Shown here: positions 14,419-22,883 of the stretch, one piece after another | How positions within the stretch are numbered: the first letter of the stretch is position 1 | Layout of the letters: every line of letters starts with the position of its first letter | Source: an uncultured Winogradskyella sp. | GTDB lineage: Bacteria > Bacteroidota > Bacteroidia > Flavobacteriales > Flavobacteriaceae | DNA: 64,000 bases | NCBI GenBank assembly: GCA_913055905.1 | Contig: CAJXLB010000009.1 | Coordinates: forward strand, 1-64,000 | Reading direction: 5' to 3' | Notes under the pieces: model-generated | Told to the model about the DNA's origin: nothing | Database searches by the model: none | The model's input: the letters and a program-made list of their open reading frames with translations, nothing else | Position numbers and translations under genes: made by a program

Positions 14419-15672
14419 TTAAAGTCCAAAAGCTTCTTTAACCTTGTCGACATAATCCAATTTTTCCCAAGTGAACAATTCTACATCCAAGGTAATAGTC
14501 TGACCGTTAGGTTGTTCAAAGGTTTTGGAGACAACTTCGTTTTTCCGACCCATATGGCCATAGGCTGCGGTTTCGCTATACATCGGCTGGCGTAATTTTA
14601 AACGTTCTTCAATCGCTGCCGGACGCATATCAAATAATTCTGAAACTTTTTGGGCTATTTCACCATCAGTCAAATTAAATGGGCAAGTGCCGTAGGTTTC
14701 AATAAATATTCCCATGGGCTCAACTACGCCAATAGCATAAGATACTTGCACTAAAACTTCATCACATAAGCCTGCGGCAACCAAATTTTTGGCAATATGC
14801 CTAGTGGCATAAGCAGCACTGCGGTCCACTTTGCTTGGGTCTTTACCCGAAAAAGCGCCGCCACCATGTGCGCCCTTACCGCCATAAGTGTCTACAATAA
14901 TCTTGCGGCCGGTTAATCCTGTATCACCATGAGGTCCACCAATAACAAATTTACCTGTAGGATTGATGTGGTATTTAATGCTATCTGTGAATAAAGGTTT
15001 TATGTGATCTGGTACCTTTTGAATCACCCTAGGAATGAGAATGGTTTTAATATCATCCCTAATTCTTTGAAGCATAGCTTCTTCCTCATCGAATTCATCA
15101 TGCTGGGTAGAAATTACGATGGTATCTATACGTTGAGGTGTATTGTCGTCGCTATATTCAATGGTAACCTGGCTTTTGGAGTCGGGTCTTAAATAGGTAA
15201 TTTCTTTGTTTTCCCGCCTCAGTGCAGCAAGTTCTTTAAGGATAAGGTGGGAAATATCCAAAGCTAAAGGCATGTAATTATTGGTCTCATTCGTAGCATA
15301 GCCAAACATCATACCTTGGTCGCCAGCACCTTGCTCTTCTTTGGTAGCTCTGTCAACACCGCGATTTATATCTTCAGACTGTTCGTGGATAGCAGAGAAT
15401 ACGCCACAGGAATTACCATCAAACATATATTCCCCTTTGGTATAGCCTATTCTGTTAATGGTGTCTCTGGCTATCTTTTGAACGTCGAGATACGTGTCCG
15501 ATTTAACCTCTCCTGCTAGCACTACTTGTCCTGTGGTTACTAAAGTTTCACACGCTACTTTAGAGTTTGGGTCAAAGGCCAAAAAGTTATCAATTAAAGC
15601 ATCACTGATTTGATCGGCAACTTTATCTGGGTGTCCTTCAGAAACGCTTTCTGAGGTAAATAAATATGACAT
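14419..15672 (-). CDS. metK: S-adenosylmethionine synthetase
   Basis: A 417-residue enzyme making SAM from methionine and ATP. Seen: [13 protein letters not shown] (residues 13-25) at the ATP/Mg site, [12 protein letters not shown] near 116-127, and [19 protein letters not shown] near 270-288, all hallmark MetK motifs; length is close to bacterial MetK. The ATG at 15672 gives the normal N-terminus ([14 protein letters not shown]). A SAM-II-type riboswitch and a good promoter lie directly upstream, so expression should drop or rise with SAM level. It ends at a bidirectional terminator. Confidence 0.98.
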
Positions 15673-15738
15673 AATTTTTAAATCTTTAAGAAGGAAAGAT
15701 TTTGAATGCTTGGAAATATGCTAGAGTAGTGGTCTAAA

Positions 15739-15811
15739 CTGCTTTAGCATTTTTGTTTCCGTTAGTTCTGCTAACTTCAGAGGTTGCAATCAGATCAAAT
15801 CTTTCCTCTAA
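15739..15811 (-). ncRNA. SAM-II-type riboswitch, long-loop form, in the metK leader
   Basis: Read on the minus strand: P1 is UUAGAGG (15811-15805) with CCUCUGA (15783-15777), 7 bp with one wobble. The loop contains GAUUUGAUCUGAUUGCAA, which lines up with the SAM-II core (…GAUUUAA…UUGCAA before the closing arm). A 5-bp extra hairpin, GUUAG-CAGAA-CUAAC (15775-15761), sits in the connector. Then comes the conserved AUGCUAAAGCAG (15750-15739), whose CAG can pair with CUG in the loop to close the pseudoknot. As I recall, long-loop SAM-II variants are known in Bacteroidota. AUGCUA (15750-15745) is also complementary to UAGCAU (15723-15718), a possible switching helix, and a perfect 8-bp hairpin (15702-15695 with 15687-15680) lies just before the start codon. 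Confidence 0.82.
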
Positions 15812-15823
15812 TTTCAATGATCG

Positions 15824-17060: not shown

Positions 17061-17830
17061 GAAAGAGAAATTTCTTAATTAAGATAAAGCACATACTACT
17101 ATGGATTACCGTAAGTTTGCTTTGGTGCTGCGACTCGGAAAATGCGCTCGATTGTTTTCAAACTTCAGGGCCAACAGTTACTCGAGAGTTGGATTTGGGT
17201 CCATTCGATAGAATTTTAGTGAATAGGGATATCACCCTTAAAATCAAAGAAGCTCCAGATTATAAGGTAATCATTCAGACAGGGGAAAATCTTTTAAACG
17301 ATGTTCATACCCAAATCATTGGTGACAGACTGATTCTAACAGATAACAATACGTGTAACTTGGTTAGGGATTTTGGTATTACGCAGATAACGGTAGAGGC
17401 GCCAAATATTTCAGAAATAAAATCATCGACTCAATATGAAATTGAATCCGCTGGAACCTTAAACTTCCCAGAACTGACTTTAATTTCCGAGGATTTTAAT
17501 GAACCCTCGGAATTTACGGTCGGAGATTTTAGGATGTCATTAAATGCTGAAAGCGTCACTATTATCTCAAATAATATTTCATTCTTTTATTTAGAAGGTG
17601 ATGTAGAGAACTTATCGGTAAATTTCTTCTCGGGTTCAGGTCGTTTTGAAGGCGCATCTCTTACCGCCCAAAATGTAGATGTCTTTCATAGAGGGAGTAA
17701 TGATATGGTGGTAAATCCACAACAGTCTTTAACAGGGGAAATGTATGGCACGGGTGATCTTATTTCGGTTGCTGTGCCGCCAGTTATAGAGGTTGATCAG
17801 TTCTACACAGGTCAACTCATTTTTAACTAG
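17057..17830 (+). CDS. head-GIN domain (DUF2807-type) lipoprotein
   Basis: A 257-residue putative lipoprotein: hydrophobic signal then LLWCC near residue 25, a possible lipobox. The mature part has the DLGPFDRILVNRDITLKIKEA opening and the repeated strand-turn pattern (SAESVTIISNN, LTAQNVDVFHRGSNDM) of the DUF2807 / putative auto-transporter adhesin head-GIN fold. Overlaps the PagL-like gene by 4 bases (ATGA), and the convergent gldA by 8 bases at its end. Role unknown; envelope-associated. Confidence 0.78.
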   Translation: MRKRNFLIKIKHILLWITVSLLWCCDSENALDCFQTSGPTVTRELDLGPFDRILVNRDITLKIKEAPDYKVIIQTGENLLNDVHTQIIGDRLILTDNNTCNLVRDFGITQITVEAPNISEIKSSTQYEIESAGTLNFPELTLISEDFNEPSEFTVGDFRMSLNAESVTIISNNISFFYLEGDVENLSVNFFSGSGRFEGASLTAQNVDVFHRGSNDMVVNPQQSLTGEMYGTGDLISVAVPPVIEVDQFYTGQLIFN

Positions 17831-18716
17831 TTAGTTCTCTAAATAAGGTTTCTAGGCTCACGTTTTTTTGGTAGAGCTGAAGGATTTTTAAATCATTATC
17901 ATGAGCAAAATCAAACACGTGCGATCGCATATCCTTTGATGCCGAAAATGTGATTTCGTAGACAAAGTCGTGTGTATTTTTAACATGGGTCGCTTGTGGT
18001 AATTTAAGAAGAAAAGCATCTTCAACTCTATAATCAAATTCTGCTACTACGATTTGAGATGTTCCGTCCTGTAGATCATTTAAATATTTGTCTGCAACGA
18101 TTTTCCCCTTGTTAATAATGATAACCCTATCGCACATTGCTTCTACCTCTTGCATGATGTGTGTAGACAGAAACACCGTTTTAGTCTTGCCAAGTGATTT
18201 AATAAGTTGTCTTATATCAATGAGTTGGTTTGGGTCTAAGCCTGTAGTTGGCTCGTCTAAAATCAAAACTTCAGGATCGTGGAGCAAGGCAGCTGCTAAA
18301 CCCACACGTTGCCTGTAGCCCTTTGATAATTGTCCTATTTTTTTATGGCATTCAGGTGTTAGACCTGTTAGTGCAATAACATCTTCTATTCTCTGTTGAG
18401 GTACCTTGTATATTTGAGCATTGAACTTTAGATATTCCTTTACGTACATGTCCAAGTATAACGGATTGTGCTCCGGAAGGTAGCCCACACGTTTTTGCAC
18501 CTCTTGTTTGGCATTAAGGGTGTTGTAGCCATTAATGCTAGCAGTGCCATGAGTTGGGTCTAGATAGGCGGTTAAGATTTTCATCATGGTAGACTTGCCT
18601 GCGCCATTGGGACCTAAAAAGCCAACGACTTCCGCAGAATTAACAGAAAAGGATACTTGGTCTAGAGCCTTTTGTGTGCCGTACAATTTGGTAATATCCT
18701 TTACATTAATAGACAT
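17823..18716 (-). CDS. gldA: gliding-motility ABC transporter ATP-binding protein GldA
   Basis: A 297-residue ATPase, the same size as GldA of Flavobacterium johnsoniae. Walker A GPNGAGKST is at residues 35-43, signature LSKGYRQRVGLA near 137, Walker B LILDEPTTGLD near 158-168, H-loop STHIMQEVEAMCDR near 190. I chose the ATG at 18716 because an earlier in-frame start adds ten untypical residues. Known role: GldA works with GldF and GldG, which are not in this window, in a membrane ABC complex needed for gliding. The stop overlaps the convergent lipoprotein gene by 8 bases. Confidence 0.9.
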   Translation of the reverse strand: MSINVKDITKLYGTQKALDQVSFSVNSAEVVGFLGPNGAGKSTMMKILTAYLDPTHGTASINGYNTLNAKQEVQKRVGYLPEHNPLYLDMYVKEYLKFNAQIYKVPQQRIEDVIALTGLTPECHKKIGQLSKGYRQRVGLAAALLHDPEVLILDEPTTGLDPNQLIDIRQLIKSLGKTKTVFLSTHIMQEVEAMCDRVIIINKGKIVADKYLNDLQDGTSQIVVAEFDYRVEDAFLLKLPQATHVKNTHDFVYEITFSASKDMRSHVFDFAHDNDLKILQLYQKNVSLETLFRELTS

Positions 18717-18783: not shown

Positions 18784-18813
18784 TTTGTTTTTACAGATTA
18801 TTAACTACTTTAG
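18784..18813 (+). promoter_or_regulatory. pheA: promoter of the aromatic amino-acid operon leader
   Basis: TTTG (18784-18787), 18 bases, TACTTTAG (18806-18813), one mismatch to TAnnTTTG. The leader-peptide ATG is 20 bases downstream. Confidence 0.55.
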
Positions 18814-18833
18814 CCAATATATTATTGAACATA

Positions 18834-18899
18834 ATGTTTAAACACGAAACATATTATAGCTGGTTTTATTTCTTTTTTACCAAAAGGAACGAGGCTTAG
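18834..18899 (+). CDS. aromatic-residue-rich leader peptide of the pheA operon
   Basis: ATG at 18834 to TAG at 18897-18899, 21 residues: MFKHETYYSWFYFFFTKRNEA. Nine of 21 are aromatic (F2, Y7, Y8, W10, F11, Y12, F13-F15). It lies 55 bases before pheA and 24 bases before a terminator hairpin. By analogy with classical pheA and trp attenuators, translation through the aromatic codons would measure charged tRNA-Phe/Tyr/Trp. The end of the reading frame (CGAGGCTT, 18890-18897) can pair with AAGGTCTCG (18924-18932), with one bulged G, giving a candidate antiterminator that a stalled ribosome would leave free. Confidence 0.85.
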   Translation: MFKHETYYSWFYFFFTKRNEA

Positions 18900-18923
18900 T
18901 ATGTTTTATTTAAGATAAATTGT

Positions 18924-18951
18924 AAGGTCTCGAGGTAATCGAGACCTTTTT
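18924..18951 (+). terminator. attenuator terminator upstream of pheA
   Basis: AAGGTCTCGA (18924-18933) and TCGAGACCTT (18939-18948), a perfect 10-bp stem with loop GGTAA, followed by TTTTTG. It ends four bases before the pheA ATG at 18955, inside the operon's own leader, so its job must be conditional. Confidence 0.88.
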
Positions 18952-18954
18952 GTT

Positions 18955-19782
18955 ATGGGGAAACCGGTTGCAATACAAGGAATAAGAGGGTCATTTCATC
19001 ATCAGGTGGCACAAGACTATTTTGAGGAAAATCAAATTGTTTTGGAATGTAACACTTTTGATAGTACCATTGATAGCTTAATCTCTGGAAAGTCTGATTA
19101 CAGTATCATTGCTTTGGAGAACTCTATCGCTGGCTCTATAATCCCTAATTACGCTTTAATCGATTCCAATGATTTAGAAATTAGTGGTGAGTATTACTTA
19201 GACGTACAACACCATTTAATGGCTTTGCCCAACCAAACAATTGAAGATATAAAAGAGGTGCAGTCGCATCCTATGGCGTTATTGCAGTGCAAAGTTTTTT
19301 TAAAGACGCTGCCTTGGATTAAGCTGGTAGAGGCTAAGGATACTGCGGCAGTTGCTATGGAAATACGCGATGCTAATCTTAAGGGAGTTGCAGCAATAGG
19401 AAGTAAATCTGCAGCTGCTCTATTTGGTCTTAATATTTTGGCTCAAAGTATTCAAACCATTAAGCACAACGAAACACGTTTTGCCATAGTACAGCGAAAA
19501 GATAATAACGCAGGTTCAAAACCATTTAATAAGGCTTCCTTAAAATTTACCTTAGACCACAAACGAGGTAGTTTGGCCACTATTTTAAATGTTATGAGCG
19601 ACTGCAAACTCAATTTAACCAAAATACAATCGGTGCCAATAATAGATGTCCCATGGAAGTATGCCTTTTTTGTGGATGTTACTTTTGCCGATAAGAAAGA
19701 TTACATAAAGGCAAAGTCCATATTGCAGATTATGGCTGAAAAGTTTAAGGTTTTGGGAGAATATAAAAATGCCAAACTATGA
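18955..19782 (+). CDS. pheA: prephenate dehydratase
   Basis: A 275-residue enzyme converting prephenate to phenylpyruvate. The N-terminal PDT domain (about 5-180) has the ALENSIAGSI segment and the ETRF segment near 178-181 (TRF motif). The C-terminal ACT domain (about 195-272) contains SLATILNVMSDCKLNLTKI, the phenylalanine-binding regulatory fold. No chorismate-mutase domain is fused here; that activity is on the fourth gene. First structural gene of the operon, behind the leader peptide and terminator. Overlaps the aminotransferase by ATGA. Confidence 0.95.
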   Translation: MGKPVAIQGIRGSFHHQVAQDYFEENQIVLECNTFDSTIDSLISGKSDYSIIALENSIAGSIIPNYALIDSNDLEISGEYYLDVQHHLMALPNQTIEDIKEVQSHPMALLQCKVFLKTLPWIKLVEAKDTAAVAMEIRDANLKGVAAIGSKSAAALFGLNILAQSIQTIKHNETRFAIVQRKDNNAGSKPFNKASLKFTLDHKRGSLATILNVMSDCKLNLTKIQSVPIIDVPWKYAFFVDVTFADKKDYIKAKSILQIMAEKFKVLGEYKNAKL

Positions 19783-20921
19783 TTGAAGTAGCAAATAGAT
19801 TAAAAGCTGTTGAGGAATATTACTTCTCAAAGAAGTTAAGAGAGGTAGCGTTACTAAAATCGCAAGGAAAGCCTATAATAAATTTAGGTATTGGCAGTCC
19901 AGACTTAGAGCCACCTTTTAAAGCAACAATGTCGCTTCAAGATAGTTTGATGGACGAAGGAGCGCATAAGTATCAAAGCTATCAAGGCATTCCAGAATTA
20001 AGGGAAGGAATCGCAAATTTTTACAAGAAGCAGTACAAGGTCAATCTCAGCTACCAAACTGAAATATTGCCGTTGCTAGGAAGTAAAGAAGGGATTATGC
20101 ACATTTCCATGGCATTTTTAAACCCTAGTGATGAGGTCCTTATTCCTAACCCAGGTTATCCAACATATTCGGCTGTAACAAAGCTATTGGAAGCCAAACC
20201 AGTCTATTATGATTTATTGGAGAATAATCATTGGCTGCCAGATTTTATAGCTCTGGAGCGCATGGATTTGAGCAAAGTGAAAATTATGTGGATTAGCTAT
20301 CCGCATATGCCCACAGGAGCTAATGCGCCCAATAAGTTTTATGATGATGTCATTGCCTTTGGGAAACGCCATAATATCTTAATCGTTAATGATAATCCTT
20401 ACAGTTTTATACTAAACAACAAGCCTATAAGTATAATGCGCTATAGAGGTGCCAAAGAGGTCTGTTTGGAGTTAAACTCTTTAAGTAAAACCTTTAATAT
20501 GGCAGGTTGGCGCGTAGGCATGCTTTTAGGCCATTACGATTATATCAGTGCTGTCTTAAGAGTGAAAAGCAACATGGACTCTGGTATGTTTTATGCCATT
20601 CAAAAAGGGGCCATTGAAGCTTTGAAATCTTCTAATTTATGGTATGGCAGTTTAAATAGTGTATATAAAAGTAGAAGAGAACTTATCTGGAAATTAGCAG
20701 AAGCATTAAACTGTACATATGATAAGGACGCTTCTGGGTTATTTGTTTGGGCTAAATTACCACCACATATCAAATCGGAGGAGTTTACGGATACGGTGTT
20801 AAAAGATCATTCTATTTTCATCGCGCCAGGTACGGTCTTTGGTAGTAATGGAGAGGGCTATGTAAGGTTTTCCCTTTGTGCGCAAGAAGAAGATATTAAC
20901 GAAGCTTTGGCAAGGGTTTAA
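19779..20921 (+). CDS. class I/II aminotransferase, probably aromatic
   Basis: A 380-residue PLP enzyme. NLGIGSPDLEPP near residue 35, the NPGYPTYS loop near 125, and SLSKTFNMAGWRVG near 236 with the PLP lysine. It is placed between pheA and tyrA with an ATGA overlap, so the likely reaction is transamination of phenylpyruvate and 4-hydroxyphenylpyruvate to Phe and Tyr. Sequence alone does not exclude other keto acids; the family also includes DapL- and AspC-like members. Confidence 0.85.
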   Translation: MIEVANRLKAVEEYYFSKKLREVALLKSQGKPIINLGIGSPDLEPPFKATMSLQDSLMDEGAHKYQSYQGIPELREGIANFYKKQYKVNLSYQTEILPLLGSKEGIMHISMAFLNPSDEVLIPNPGYPTYSAVTKLLEAKPVYYDLLENNHWLPDFIALERMDLSKVKIMWISYPHMPTGANAPNKFYDDVIAFGKRHNILIVNDNPYSFILNNKPISIMRYRGAKEVCLELNSLSKTFNMAGWRVGMLLGHYDYISAVLRVKSNMDSGMFYAIQKGAIEALKSSNLWYGSLNSVYKSRRELIWKLAEALNCTYDKDASGLFVWAKLPPHIKSEEFTDTVLKDHSIFIAPGTVFGSNGEGYVRFSLCAQEEDINEALARV

Positions 20922-20924
20922 GTC

Positions 20925-21779
20925 ATGATAAACAACGTTTTTATAATCGGAATTGGGTTAATAGGAGGAAGTTTTGCGCTGGACTTAAGGCAAAAATATC
21001 CAAGTCTCAAGATTTATGGCATAGATAAAGACGAAAATCACTTAGATGAAGCAGTAAATCTGGGCTTAATTGATGAAAAGGCCAGTATGGAGACGCTTAA
21101 TAAGGCTGAGGTCGTCATCCTTTCTACTCCAGTAGATGCAGCTTTAGAGGTATTACCTTCGGTATTAAATAACATTTCCGAAGAAACCATCGTATTCGAT
21201 GTTGGGTCAACCAAAGAAGATATTTGTGCTGTTGCTAAGAACCATCCAAGAAGACGAAACTTCTTGGCAGCGCATCCCATTGCAGGTAACGAATTTTCAG
21301 GGCCTTCTGCAGCTATCAAAGGACTTTTTCACAACAAGACAAATATTATATGCGAAGTAGAAGAAACGGCTTTCAAACTGCAAGAGAAAGCACTTTCAAT
21401 ATTCGCCAATTTAGGAATGCGTATTCGGTATATGAACCCAAAGGCTCATGATAAGCATATTGCTTACGTATCACACTTATCACACATAAGTTCGTTTATG
21501 CTTGGAAAGACCGTTATTGAAAAGGAAAAAAATGAACGCGATATTTTTGATATGGCAGGGAGTGGTTTTGAAAGTACGGTGCGTCTAGCCAAAAGTTCAC
21601 CTGCAATGTGGACGCCTATATTCCGACAAAACAAAGCCAATGTCATAGAAACCTTGGAAGAGTACATTGCCAATCTGGTGTATTTCAAAAATTTAATGAA
21701 GGAAGATAATTTTGAAGCCGTTTATGAGGAAATGGAATCTACAAATCACATTAAGAATATTTTAAAAGGTATAGAATAG
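20925..21779 (+). CDS. tyrA: prephenate dehydrogenase
   Basis: A 284-residue NAD(P)-dependent enzyme that turns prephenate into 4-hydroxyphenylpyruvate. Rossmann motif GIGLIGGS (residues 9-16) near the N-terminus, DVGSTKEDI near 87, AHPIAGNEFSG near 108, and HIAYVSHLSHISSF near 180 with the catalytic histidine region. No ACT or mutase domain. It follows the aminotransferase stop by three bases. Confidence 0.95.
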   Translation: MINNVFIIGIGLIGGSFALDLRQKYPSLKIYGIDKDENHLDEAVNLGLIDEKASMETLNKAEVVILSTPVDAALEVLPSVLNNISEETIVFDVGSTKEDICAVAKNHPRRRNFLAAHPIAGNEFSGPSAAIKGLFHNKTNIICEVEETAFKLQEKALSIFANLGMRIRYMNPKAHDKHIAYVSHLSHISSFMLGKTVIEKEKNERDIFDMAGSGFESTVRLAKSSPAMWTPIFRQNKANVIETLEEYIANLVYFKNLMKEDNFEAVYEEMESTNHIKNILKGIE

Positions 21780-21800: not shown

Positions 21801-22883
21801 ATGGAAAACAAAAAAGAATTGCGCAATTGGTTAGATGCCTTTAATTTAAGTCACCCTTTGGTCATAGCAGGGCCATGCAGTGCAGAAACTGAAGACCAGG
21901 TGCTTAATATTGCACATCAACTTAAAGATAGTGATGCTACCGTGTTTAGGGCAGGTATTTGGAAACCGAGGACACGTCCAGGCAACTTTGAAGGCGTTGG
22001 TGCTCTGGGCTTAAAGTGGTTGCAGCGTGCTAAGGAAGAGACAGGACTCATGATAACCACCGAAGTTGCTAATCCGCACCATGTAGAACTGGCACTGGAG
22101 CACGATGTAGACATTCTTTGGATTGGTGCTAGGACTACAGTAAGCCCGTTCATTGTTCAGGACATAGCAGATGCCCTTAAAGGTACCAATAAACCGGTTT
22201 TAATAAAGAATCCAGTTAATCCAGATTTGTCCTTGTGGTTGGGAGCTGTGGAACGTTTTTATAAAGCAGATGTGTCTAATTTAGGTGTCATACACAGAGG
22301 CTTTTCAACATACGAGAAAACGAGATACAGAAATAATCCCGAATGGCAAATTGCTGTAGACTTGCAAAATCGTTTTCCCGATTTGCCTTTAATTTTAGAT
22401 CCTTCCCATATCGCAGGTCGAAGGGATATTATTTTTGATTTGAGCCAAACAGCACTAGACCTCAATTATGATGGTTTAATGATTGAAACGCACCACGACC
22501 CAGACAATGCTTGGAGTGATGCCGCCCAGCAGATAACACCCGATGCCTTAATTAAATATACTGAAGATTTAAGAATTAGAAAGGAAGTCGGAGATGATGC
22601 TGCCTTTAAAAATAAAATTAATACGCTGCGGACTAAAATCGATGTTATTGATCATCAGTTGATCGAAATTTTAGGTAAACGTATGAAGGTTGCAGATGAG
22701 ATTGGCGAACTTAAAAAAGCTCACAATGTCGCGGTATTACAATCCAAACGTTGGAATGAGATTCTAGGAAAGATGATTTTGGAAGGTGAGGAGAAAAACC
22801 TTAGCGAAGAGTTTATTTTAAGAATGTTTAAGGCCATTCATCAAGAGTCCATCAATCACCAAGAGGAGATTATCAATCATTAA
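21801..22883 (+). CDS. bifunctional DAHP synthase / chorismate mutase type II
   Basis: A 360-residue fusion. Residues about 1-260 are a KDSA/type I-beta DAHP synthase: AGPCSAETEDQV near 24, RAGIWKPRTRPGNFEG near 50, LIKNPVNPDLSLW near 134, DPSHIAGRR near 197. Residues about 268-352 are an AroQ-type chorismate mutase (INTLRTKIDVIDHQLIEILGKRM, then KKAHNVAVLQSKRW). It supplies both the first shikimate-pathway step and the chorismate-to-prephenate branch, so the operon runs from the pathway entrance to Phe/Tyr. The feedback target may be the mutase domain (inference). A strong terminator follows. Confidence 0.95.
   Translation: MENKKELRNWLDAFNLSHPLVIAGPCSAETEDQVLNIAHQLKDSDATVFRAGIWKPRTRPGNFEGVGALGLKWLQRAKEETGLMITTEVANPHHVELALEHDVDILWIGARTTVSPFIVQDIADALKGTNKPVLIKNPVNPDLSLWLGAVERFYKADVSNLGVIHRGFSTYEKTRYRNNPEWQIAVDLQNRFPDLPLILDPSHIAGRRDIIFDLSQTALDLNYDGLMIETHHDPDNAWSDAAQQITPDALIKYTEDLRIRKEVGDDAAFKNKINTLRTKIDVIDHQLIEILGKRMKVADEIGELKKAHNVAVLQSKRWNEILGKMILEGEEKNLSEEFILRMFKAIHQESINHQEEIINH

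Follow-up and report, generated by a model that had tools for sequence, protein, structure and literature searches.

The window, by which we mean the whole 64,000-nucleotide stretch of DNA analysed here, carries an operon for aromatic amino acid synthesis that is preceded by a short reading frame rich in aromatic codons and by a terminator hairpin. The features of the locus are as follows.

17823-18716, minus strand: gldA, gliding-motility ABC transporter ATPase (TIGR03522 above its cut-off)
18784-18813, plus strand: putative Bacteroidetes-type promoter, TTTG at 18784-18787, an 18-nt spacer and TACTTTAG at 18806-18813
18834-18899, plus strand: leader peptide frame MFKHETYYSWFYFFFTKRNEA, 21 codons and a TAG stop (ORF translation)
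18846-18876, plus strand: region 1, 5' side of the leader hairpin, holding most of the aromatic codons (MFE fold and consensus helix)
18852-18878, plus strand: control region, codons Y7 Y8 S9 W10 F11 Y12 F13 F14 F15
18882-18907, plus strand: region 2, 3' side of the leader hairpin (MFE fold and consensus helix)
18890-18897, plus strand: candidate antiterminator segment, part of region 2, pairing with 18925-18932
18924-18933, plus strand: region 3, left terminator arm, common to antiterminator and terminator (terminator scan, pairing)
18939-18951, plus strand: region 4, right terminator arm and T tract (terminator scan)
18955-19782, plus strand: pheA, prephenate dehydratase (PF00800, 3.2e-53)
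19779-20921, plus strand: class I/II aminotransferase (PF00155, 1.9e-54)
20925-21779, plus strand: tyrA, prephenate dehydrogenase (PF02153, PF20463; NF006307 above its cut-off)
21801-22883, plus strand: DAHP synthase fused to chorismate mutase (PF00793, PF01817)

The gldA gene is divergent from the leader, and the intergenic region is common to both. The order pheA, aminotransferase, tyrA, DAHP synthase was found in all 77 named loci that had at least 4 kb of sequence past the pheA start (80 loci were fetched).

The anatomy of the leader was largely as the preliminary description had read it. The frame runs from ATG to TAG over 21 codons and 9 of its 21 residues are F, Y or W. The terminator has a perfect 10-bp stem (18924-18933 with 18939-18948), a loop of 5 nt and a U tail encoded by the T tract at 18947-18951, and the segment 18890-18897 can form 8 pairs with the left terminator arm at 18925-18932, two of them G-U. 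One measurement was corrected, in that the terminator had been placed four bases before pheA and three bases lie between 18951 and the pheA ATG at 18955. The leader region contained one terminator-like site, compared with 0.3 in shuffles, and its fold was better than that of 200 out of 200 shuffled sequences (z = -3.7).

To follow the leader through the family, we took 149 genomes, one per genus, of the same family (Flavobacteriaceae, judging by the named relatives), found pheA in 130 and used all 130 upstream regions. A leader was scored when a frame of 10-50 codons with an ATG start and at least six F, Y or W in nine codons lay no more than 300 nt upstream of pheA. The aromatic frame, whose absence from close relatives had been named beforehand as the result that would speak against attenuation, was present in 123 of the 130 genera. 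The same rule was satisfied by 44 of 2600 order-1 Markov resamplings of these upstream regions and by 24 of 4628 other 300-nt stretches. Among the named loci 78 of 80 passed, and both failures were cut by a contig end. The seven genera without a scored leader were of several kinds. In one (L005) the contig end truncates the locus, yet the aromatic core is visible and there is a partial match to the covariance model described below; a second (L185) combines a terminator with a weaker leader, aromatic at 5 of 9 positions; in a third (L119) the covariance model matches 518 nt upstream of pheA, and the attenuator appears to have been separated from its operon. The stretch beside pheA in L119 (G013:C21) contains repeated sequence. 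In the remaining four genera (L174, L183, L184 and L197) no leader was found in the 330 nt upstream of pheA, and the three of them whose genomes were searched with the covariance model (L174, L183 and L184) gave no match.

Upstream of these leaders we compared promoter sequences. The Bacteroidetes promoter consensus is TTTG-N17-22-TAnnTTWG, from which the window promoter departs at one place (A for T), and transcription would be expected to start near 18818. In the 90 nt next to the leader start, the full consensus was found in 75 of the 123 genomes, against a control mean of 1.1, and a -7-type motif in 113, against a control mean of 16.7. A scan for sigma-70 promoters found none ahead of the leader, and its sole match lay inside pheA. 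A looser -7 score (5 of 6) was set aside as uninformative, with 119 of 123 genomes and 87 of 123 shuffles reaching it.

The 54 closest sequences were aligned (alignment A1) and their helices compared. The outer helix of the leader hairpin, ACATA/TATGT, was paired in 93.4% of cells, the inner helix, in which the aromatic codons TATTTCTTTTTT pair with AAAAGRAACGAG, in 97.8%, and the terminator helix in 99.3%. Pairs changed on both sides numbered 6, compared with 2.5 in shuffles. The antiterminator helix CGAGAC/GTCTCG was paired in 98.8% of cells and was nearly invariant, and no antiterminator covariation was found within these 54 sequences. The covariation test therefore rests on a comparison of terminator arm classes over the 123 genomes.

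We also built a covariance model from A1 and searched it in the genome of the window and in 100 family genomes, 16 of which had no pheA match. The home genome contained one convincing copy, upstream of pheA (1.5e-15); the runner-up, at 0.0165, was rejected as a further copy. In the family 51 of the 100 genomes had matches, 52 in total, and 51 of these sat immediately 5' of pheA in the same orientation. Deep clades picked up by the leader rule are missed by the model. The sole match away from a found pheA (G048:C240:8607-8756) lies in an assembly with 6% contamination and possibly comes from a second organism.

A permissive scan scored a terminator in all 123 family leaders, which by itself means little since it also found something in 2093 of 4920 shuffles; the genomes' own terminator scores were equalled in just 12 of those 4920. 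The terminator arms fell into classes, with GUCUCG in 69 genomes, GUCCCG in 23, GUCCUG in 13 and the rest smaller. For the comparison of classes, the windows were placed by their distance from the aromatic core, independently of pairing. Antiterminator pairing was above 95% of shuffles in 118 of 123 genomes, and in 115 of 123, a count uncorrected for relatedness, a genome paired better with its own arm than, on average, with arms from other classes. In five of the six arm classes with at least two members the best pairing was with the class's own arm; the exception, GUUCCG, pairs better with the arms of other classes. The antiterminator segment, towards the end of the leader frame, changes in sequence with the class of the terminator arm.

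Counted from the first base of the last aromatic codon, pairing began 12-15 nt further on in 109 of 123 genomes (14 nt in 57, 12 nt in 25, 13 nt in 17 and 15 nt in 10), and shuffled windows fell in this range 17% of the time. A distance of 12-15 nt corresponds approximately to the leading edge of a ribosome that has the last aromatic codon in its A site. On this spacing, a stall on the aromatic codons would leave the pairing segment free and a ribosome nearer the stop would hide it.

We simulated the switch by keeping the bases covered by the ribosome unpaired, with the leading edge at +12, in a nascent RNA extending to 18938. The predicted probability of the window antiterminator was 0.94-0.95 with the ribosome on Y7, Y8, W10, F11, Y12, F13, F14 or F15, 0.00 with the ribosome on K17, N19 or A21 or at the stop codon, and 0.09 in its absence. 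Moving the leading edge to +14 lowered the value at F15 to 0.81. Across the family, a ribosome at the last aromatic codon gave a probability above 0.5 in 117 of 123 genomes and one at the stop did so in 2 of 123, and 115 of 123 were both free at the last aromatic codon and closed at the stop. The ribosome-free prediction varied. The 1:2 hairpin is present in the window and supported in the 54 close sequences, and 79 of 123 genomes, the window not among them, favoured the antiterminator when the nascent RNA carried no ribosome. The untranslated default is therefore not uniform, and it may differ between clades.

The full-length RNA at equilibrium gave a different picture. The terminator won in the window at every tested ribosome position (P 0.95-0.97), and in 101, 120 and 123 of the 123 genomes with the ribosome at mid-core, at the last aromatic codon and at the stop, respectively. 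The computed barrier out of the antiterminator once the terminator is complete was only 6.3 kcal/mol, for a path without a ribosome. In the sequence and in nascent-RNA folding, a ribosome placed on the control codons releases an antiterminator incompatible with the terminator. This did not hold at full-length equilibrium, so the antiterminator would have to act kinetically, or pausing of RNA polymerase would have to help.

The leaders pheL and trpL are textbook attenuators, and we ran E. coli pheL through the same code as a comparison. It gave the same kind of predicted switch, with an antiterminator probability of 0.93 for P5 to T13, 0.70 at F14, 0.05 at P15, and 0 both at the stop and without a ribosome. 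At full-length equilibrium pheL stalls from P5 to F11 retained the antiterminator, unlike the window. The two loci share their layout, with a short leader whose aromatic codons lie on one side of a 1:2 hairpin, an antiterminator, a terminator and then pheA. They differ in that the pheL peptide is without Tyr or Trp, both of which are in the window leader; that the antiterminator segment is past the stop codon in pheL and inside the frame in the window; and that tyrA and aroF are on the other strand in E. coli, whereas tyrA and DAHP synthase lie downstream in the operon of the window.

A ribosome-mediated transcription attenuator is by far the best explanation of the observed anatomy, conservation, co-variation with terminator class and fixed spacing within the family, and we consider it very probable from the sequences and the folding model. 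The translation-coupled attenuation that the preliminary description proposed is strongly supported by the comparison of leaders, terminators, arm classes, promoters and spacing and by the simulation. Transcription would begin near 18818 and a ribosome would translate the 21-codon leader. A shortage of charged Phe-, Tyr- or Trp-tRNA would stall the ribosome on the aromatic codons at 18852-18878, where it would cover region 1 and leave 18890-18897 free to pair with the left terminator arm as that arm emerges, and RNA polymerase would read through into pheA, the aminotransferase, tyrA and DAHP synthase. When all three are plentiful, the ribosome would reach the stop at 18897-18899 and cover the antiterminator segment, and the terminator would form.

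Which amino acids act through such an attenuator is less certain. In a narrower form of the same reading, only starvation for Phe, or for Phe and Tyr, would have an effect, and the Trp codons and perhaps the Tyr codons would do little; we think this quite possible, while leaning against it. Phe is the commonest control residue (665 F, 441 Y and 87 W over the 123 leaders) and is present in all 123, Trp occurs in 85 and is lacking in 38, trpE has a leader of its own in the same genome, and a review reports, in the part concerned, that Tyr is without effect at the AroR leader (PMC11802643). Against the narrower form, every one of the 123 leaders contains Tyr, the model has the antiterminator freed by a stall on each codon tested between Y7 and F15, and the operon contains the first enzyme of the common pathway. 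The suggestion that one leader senses Phe, Tyr and Trp comes from the codons, of which those for Phe and Tyr are general in the family and those for Trp are not; on that basis the window leader may respond to all three.

If the hairpin instead hid the pheA start, the leader would regulate the translation of pheA and not its transcription. The window hairpin, which ends 6 nt ahead of the pheA ATG, would suit such an arrangement. However, the distance from the end of the covariance-model match to pheA ranged from 0 to 104 nt, and was once 518 nt, in 51 genomes, and the hairpins of the 123 aligned sequences, picked by a scan requiring at least four T, have T tracts after them. We regard control of translation as highly improbable.

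The aromatic codons could also be a by-product of a T-rich arm that pairs with an A-rich segment, no amino acid being sensed, and the nearly complete pairing of the inner helix in the 54 closest sequences would agree with this. Deep relatives nevertheless keep the aromatic identity with other sequences, such as FYFYFFF and NWNFYFFFFYFF, and the pairing segment lies at a fixed distance from the last aromatic codon. We also counted the last core aromatic codon and the eight codons before it in each of the 123 leaders (1107 in total) and found TTT 390 times, TTC 179, TAT 223, TAC 72, TGG 54 and AAC 80. The T-rich Leu codons were represented by no TTA and one TTG, and the non-aromatic codons were mainly Asn, Ser, Gly or Thr and not T-rich Leu or Ile, in a count that is biased by the leader rule, which required at least six aromatics in nine and left up to three of the nine codons free. 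A by-product is on these grounds scarcely credible. Action in trans of the leader peptide or of the terminated leader RNA, for which the one point in favour is the reported precedent of peTrpL in Sinorhizobium, is just as hard to credit, since relatives differ in the ends of the peptide and in its length (16 to about 29 residues), as would suit a role in cis.

The attenuator reading was compared with described elements. No Rfam family was above its cut-off at the leader element of the window, and no T-box or other Rfam riboswitch matched there. The Phe_leader family (RF01859, cut-off 55 bits) did not match the window with E allowed up to 10, and among the loci of 14 relatives its best scores, 31.8 and 31.4 bits, were below the cut-off. 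Bacteroid-trp (RF01692, cut-off 49 bits) gave no match in the window and, at E up to 0.001, none anywhere in the genome. Low-threshold Rfam matches near the leader (cyano_het_sRNA at 29.6 bits, RT-18 and others) were below their cut-offs and were rejected as generic likeness to terminator hairpins.

In Corynebacterium glutamicum, the AroR leader ahead of aroF (DAHP synthase) has a Phe-Tyr-Phe motif (PMC11802643, PMC7356990). It resembles the window leader as a single leader that carries both Phe and Tyr codons and precedes DAHP synthase, and differs in belonging to the Actinobacteria and in that the excerpted accounts mention no Trp. One of them, the review, has limitation for Phe but not for Tyr as effective (PMC11802643), and the other describes control by both (PMC7356990). 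The uORFC-13-1 motif of Acholeplasma aroF combines an upstream frame, whose U run codes for Phe, with a terminator before DAHP synthase (PMC8632094); it is from another phylum, and the part of the paper concerned claims at least one Phe codon and no Tyr or Trp.

The statement in the preliminary description that no example was described in this phylum was too strong. In Flavobacterium psychrophilum, clues to leader-peptide attenuation were reported in 2021 upstream of amino-acid operons, together with a structured 5' element ahead of pheA that is conserved across Flavobacteriaceae genera and has no Rfam hit (PMC9723704). That element agrees with ours in gene, family, conservation across genera and absence of an Rfam hit, and is probably the same element; the section of PMC9723704 concerned does not describe it as encoding an aromatic leader. 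Bacteroid-trp is listed among the cis-regulatory RNA motifs of Bacteroidetes (PMC2864571), and leader-like short frames in long 5' UTRs have been described in Bacteroides (PMC7366714), as far as the excerpts of these sources go. Among the open-licence PMC papers that the searches listed, we recognised none on a mixed Phe/Tyr/Trp leader before pheA in Bacteroidota, and the excerpts of PMC4833913, PMC1262725 and PMC1183508 contain none. The window element is a well-supported attenuator of known mechanism that was in part anticipated in print; the mechanism is classical and its widespread Bacteroidota version is little described. For a phylum in which little is known of how amino acid synthesis is regulated, it offers a concrete control mechanism for the aromatic ones, a probable explanation for the conserved and unexplained RNA element before pheA in Flavobacteriaceae, and more than 100 natural attenuator variants whose terminator and antiterminator have co-varied while the ribosome spacing stayed fixed. 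These would be grounds for a new Rfam family and for annotation of the small ORF.

A wider sample covered the class Bacteroidia. A pheA match at 1e-20 was found in 41 of 149 genomes, the remaining 108 being outside the analysis; with the family's own four and L248 (no alignment) set aside, 35 genomes from 20 families were examined. The leader was present in 22 of the 35 genomes and 13 of the 20 families. A terminator was scored in 17 of these 22, and antiterminator pairing was above 95% of shuffles in 14 of the 17. The spacing was looser than within the family, at 12-15 nt in 8 of 17. In L212, a further family 1 genome that was left out of the class count, a leader was also seen.

In the genome of the window, trpE is preceded by a Trp leader of its own, MKLNNQHTWWWYFTTENS, and then by a T-tailed hairpin, both identified by eye. 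This leader (locus L249) lies on the minus strand, upstream of a trpE-like match at G000:C4 195639-196979 that is below its curated cut-off. With a different leader and its own T-tailed hairpin at trpE, the genome seems to contain two aromatic attenuators. We presume from its name that Bacteroid-trp is linked to trp genes. A single leader, ancestral in Bacteroidia and alongside a separate Trp-only leader at trpE, might respond in the manner of an OR gate to starvation for any of the three aromatic amino acids and so control an operon that includes the entry enzyme of the pathway, a proposal that we rate as close to evenly balanced and slightly on the doubtful side. If it were true, ribosome-mediated attenuation would be a main and old mode of amino-acid control in a phylum where such attenuation has received very little study.

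A known regulatory RNA was also seen elsewhere in the window. A SAM-II riboswitch aptamer lies at 15734-15814 on the minus strand (57.8 bits against a cut-off of 44), just upstream of a frame on the same strand at 14419-15672, which we take by eye to be an S-adenosylmethionine synthetase.
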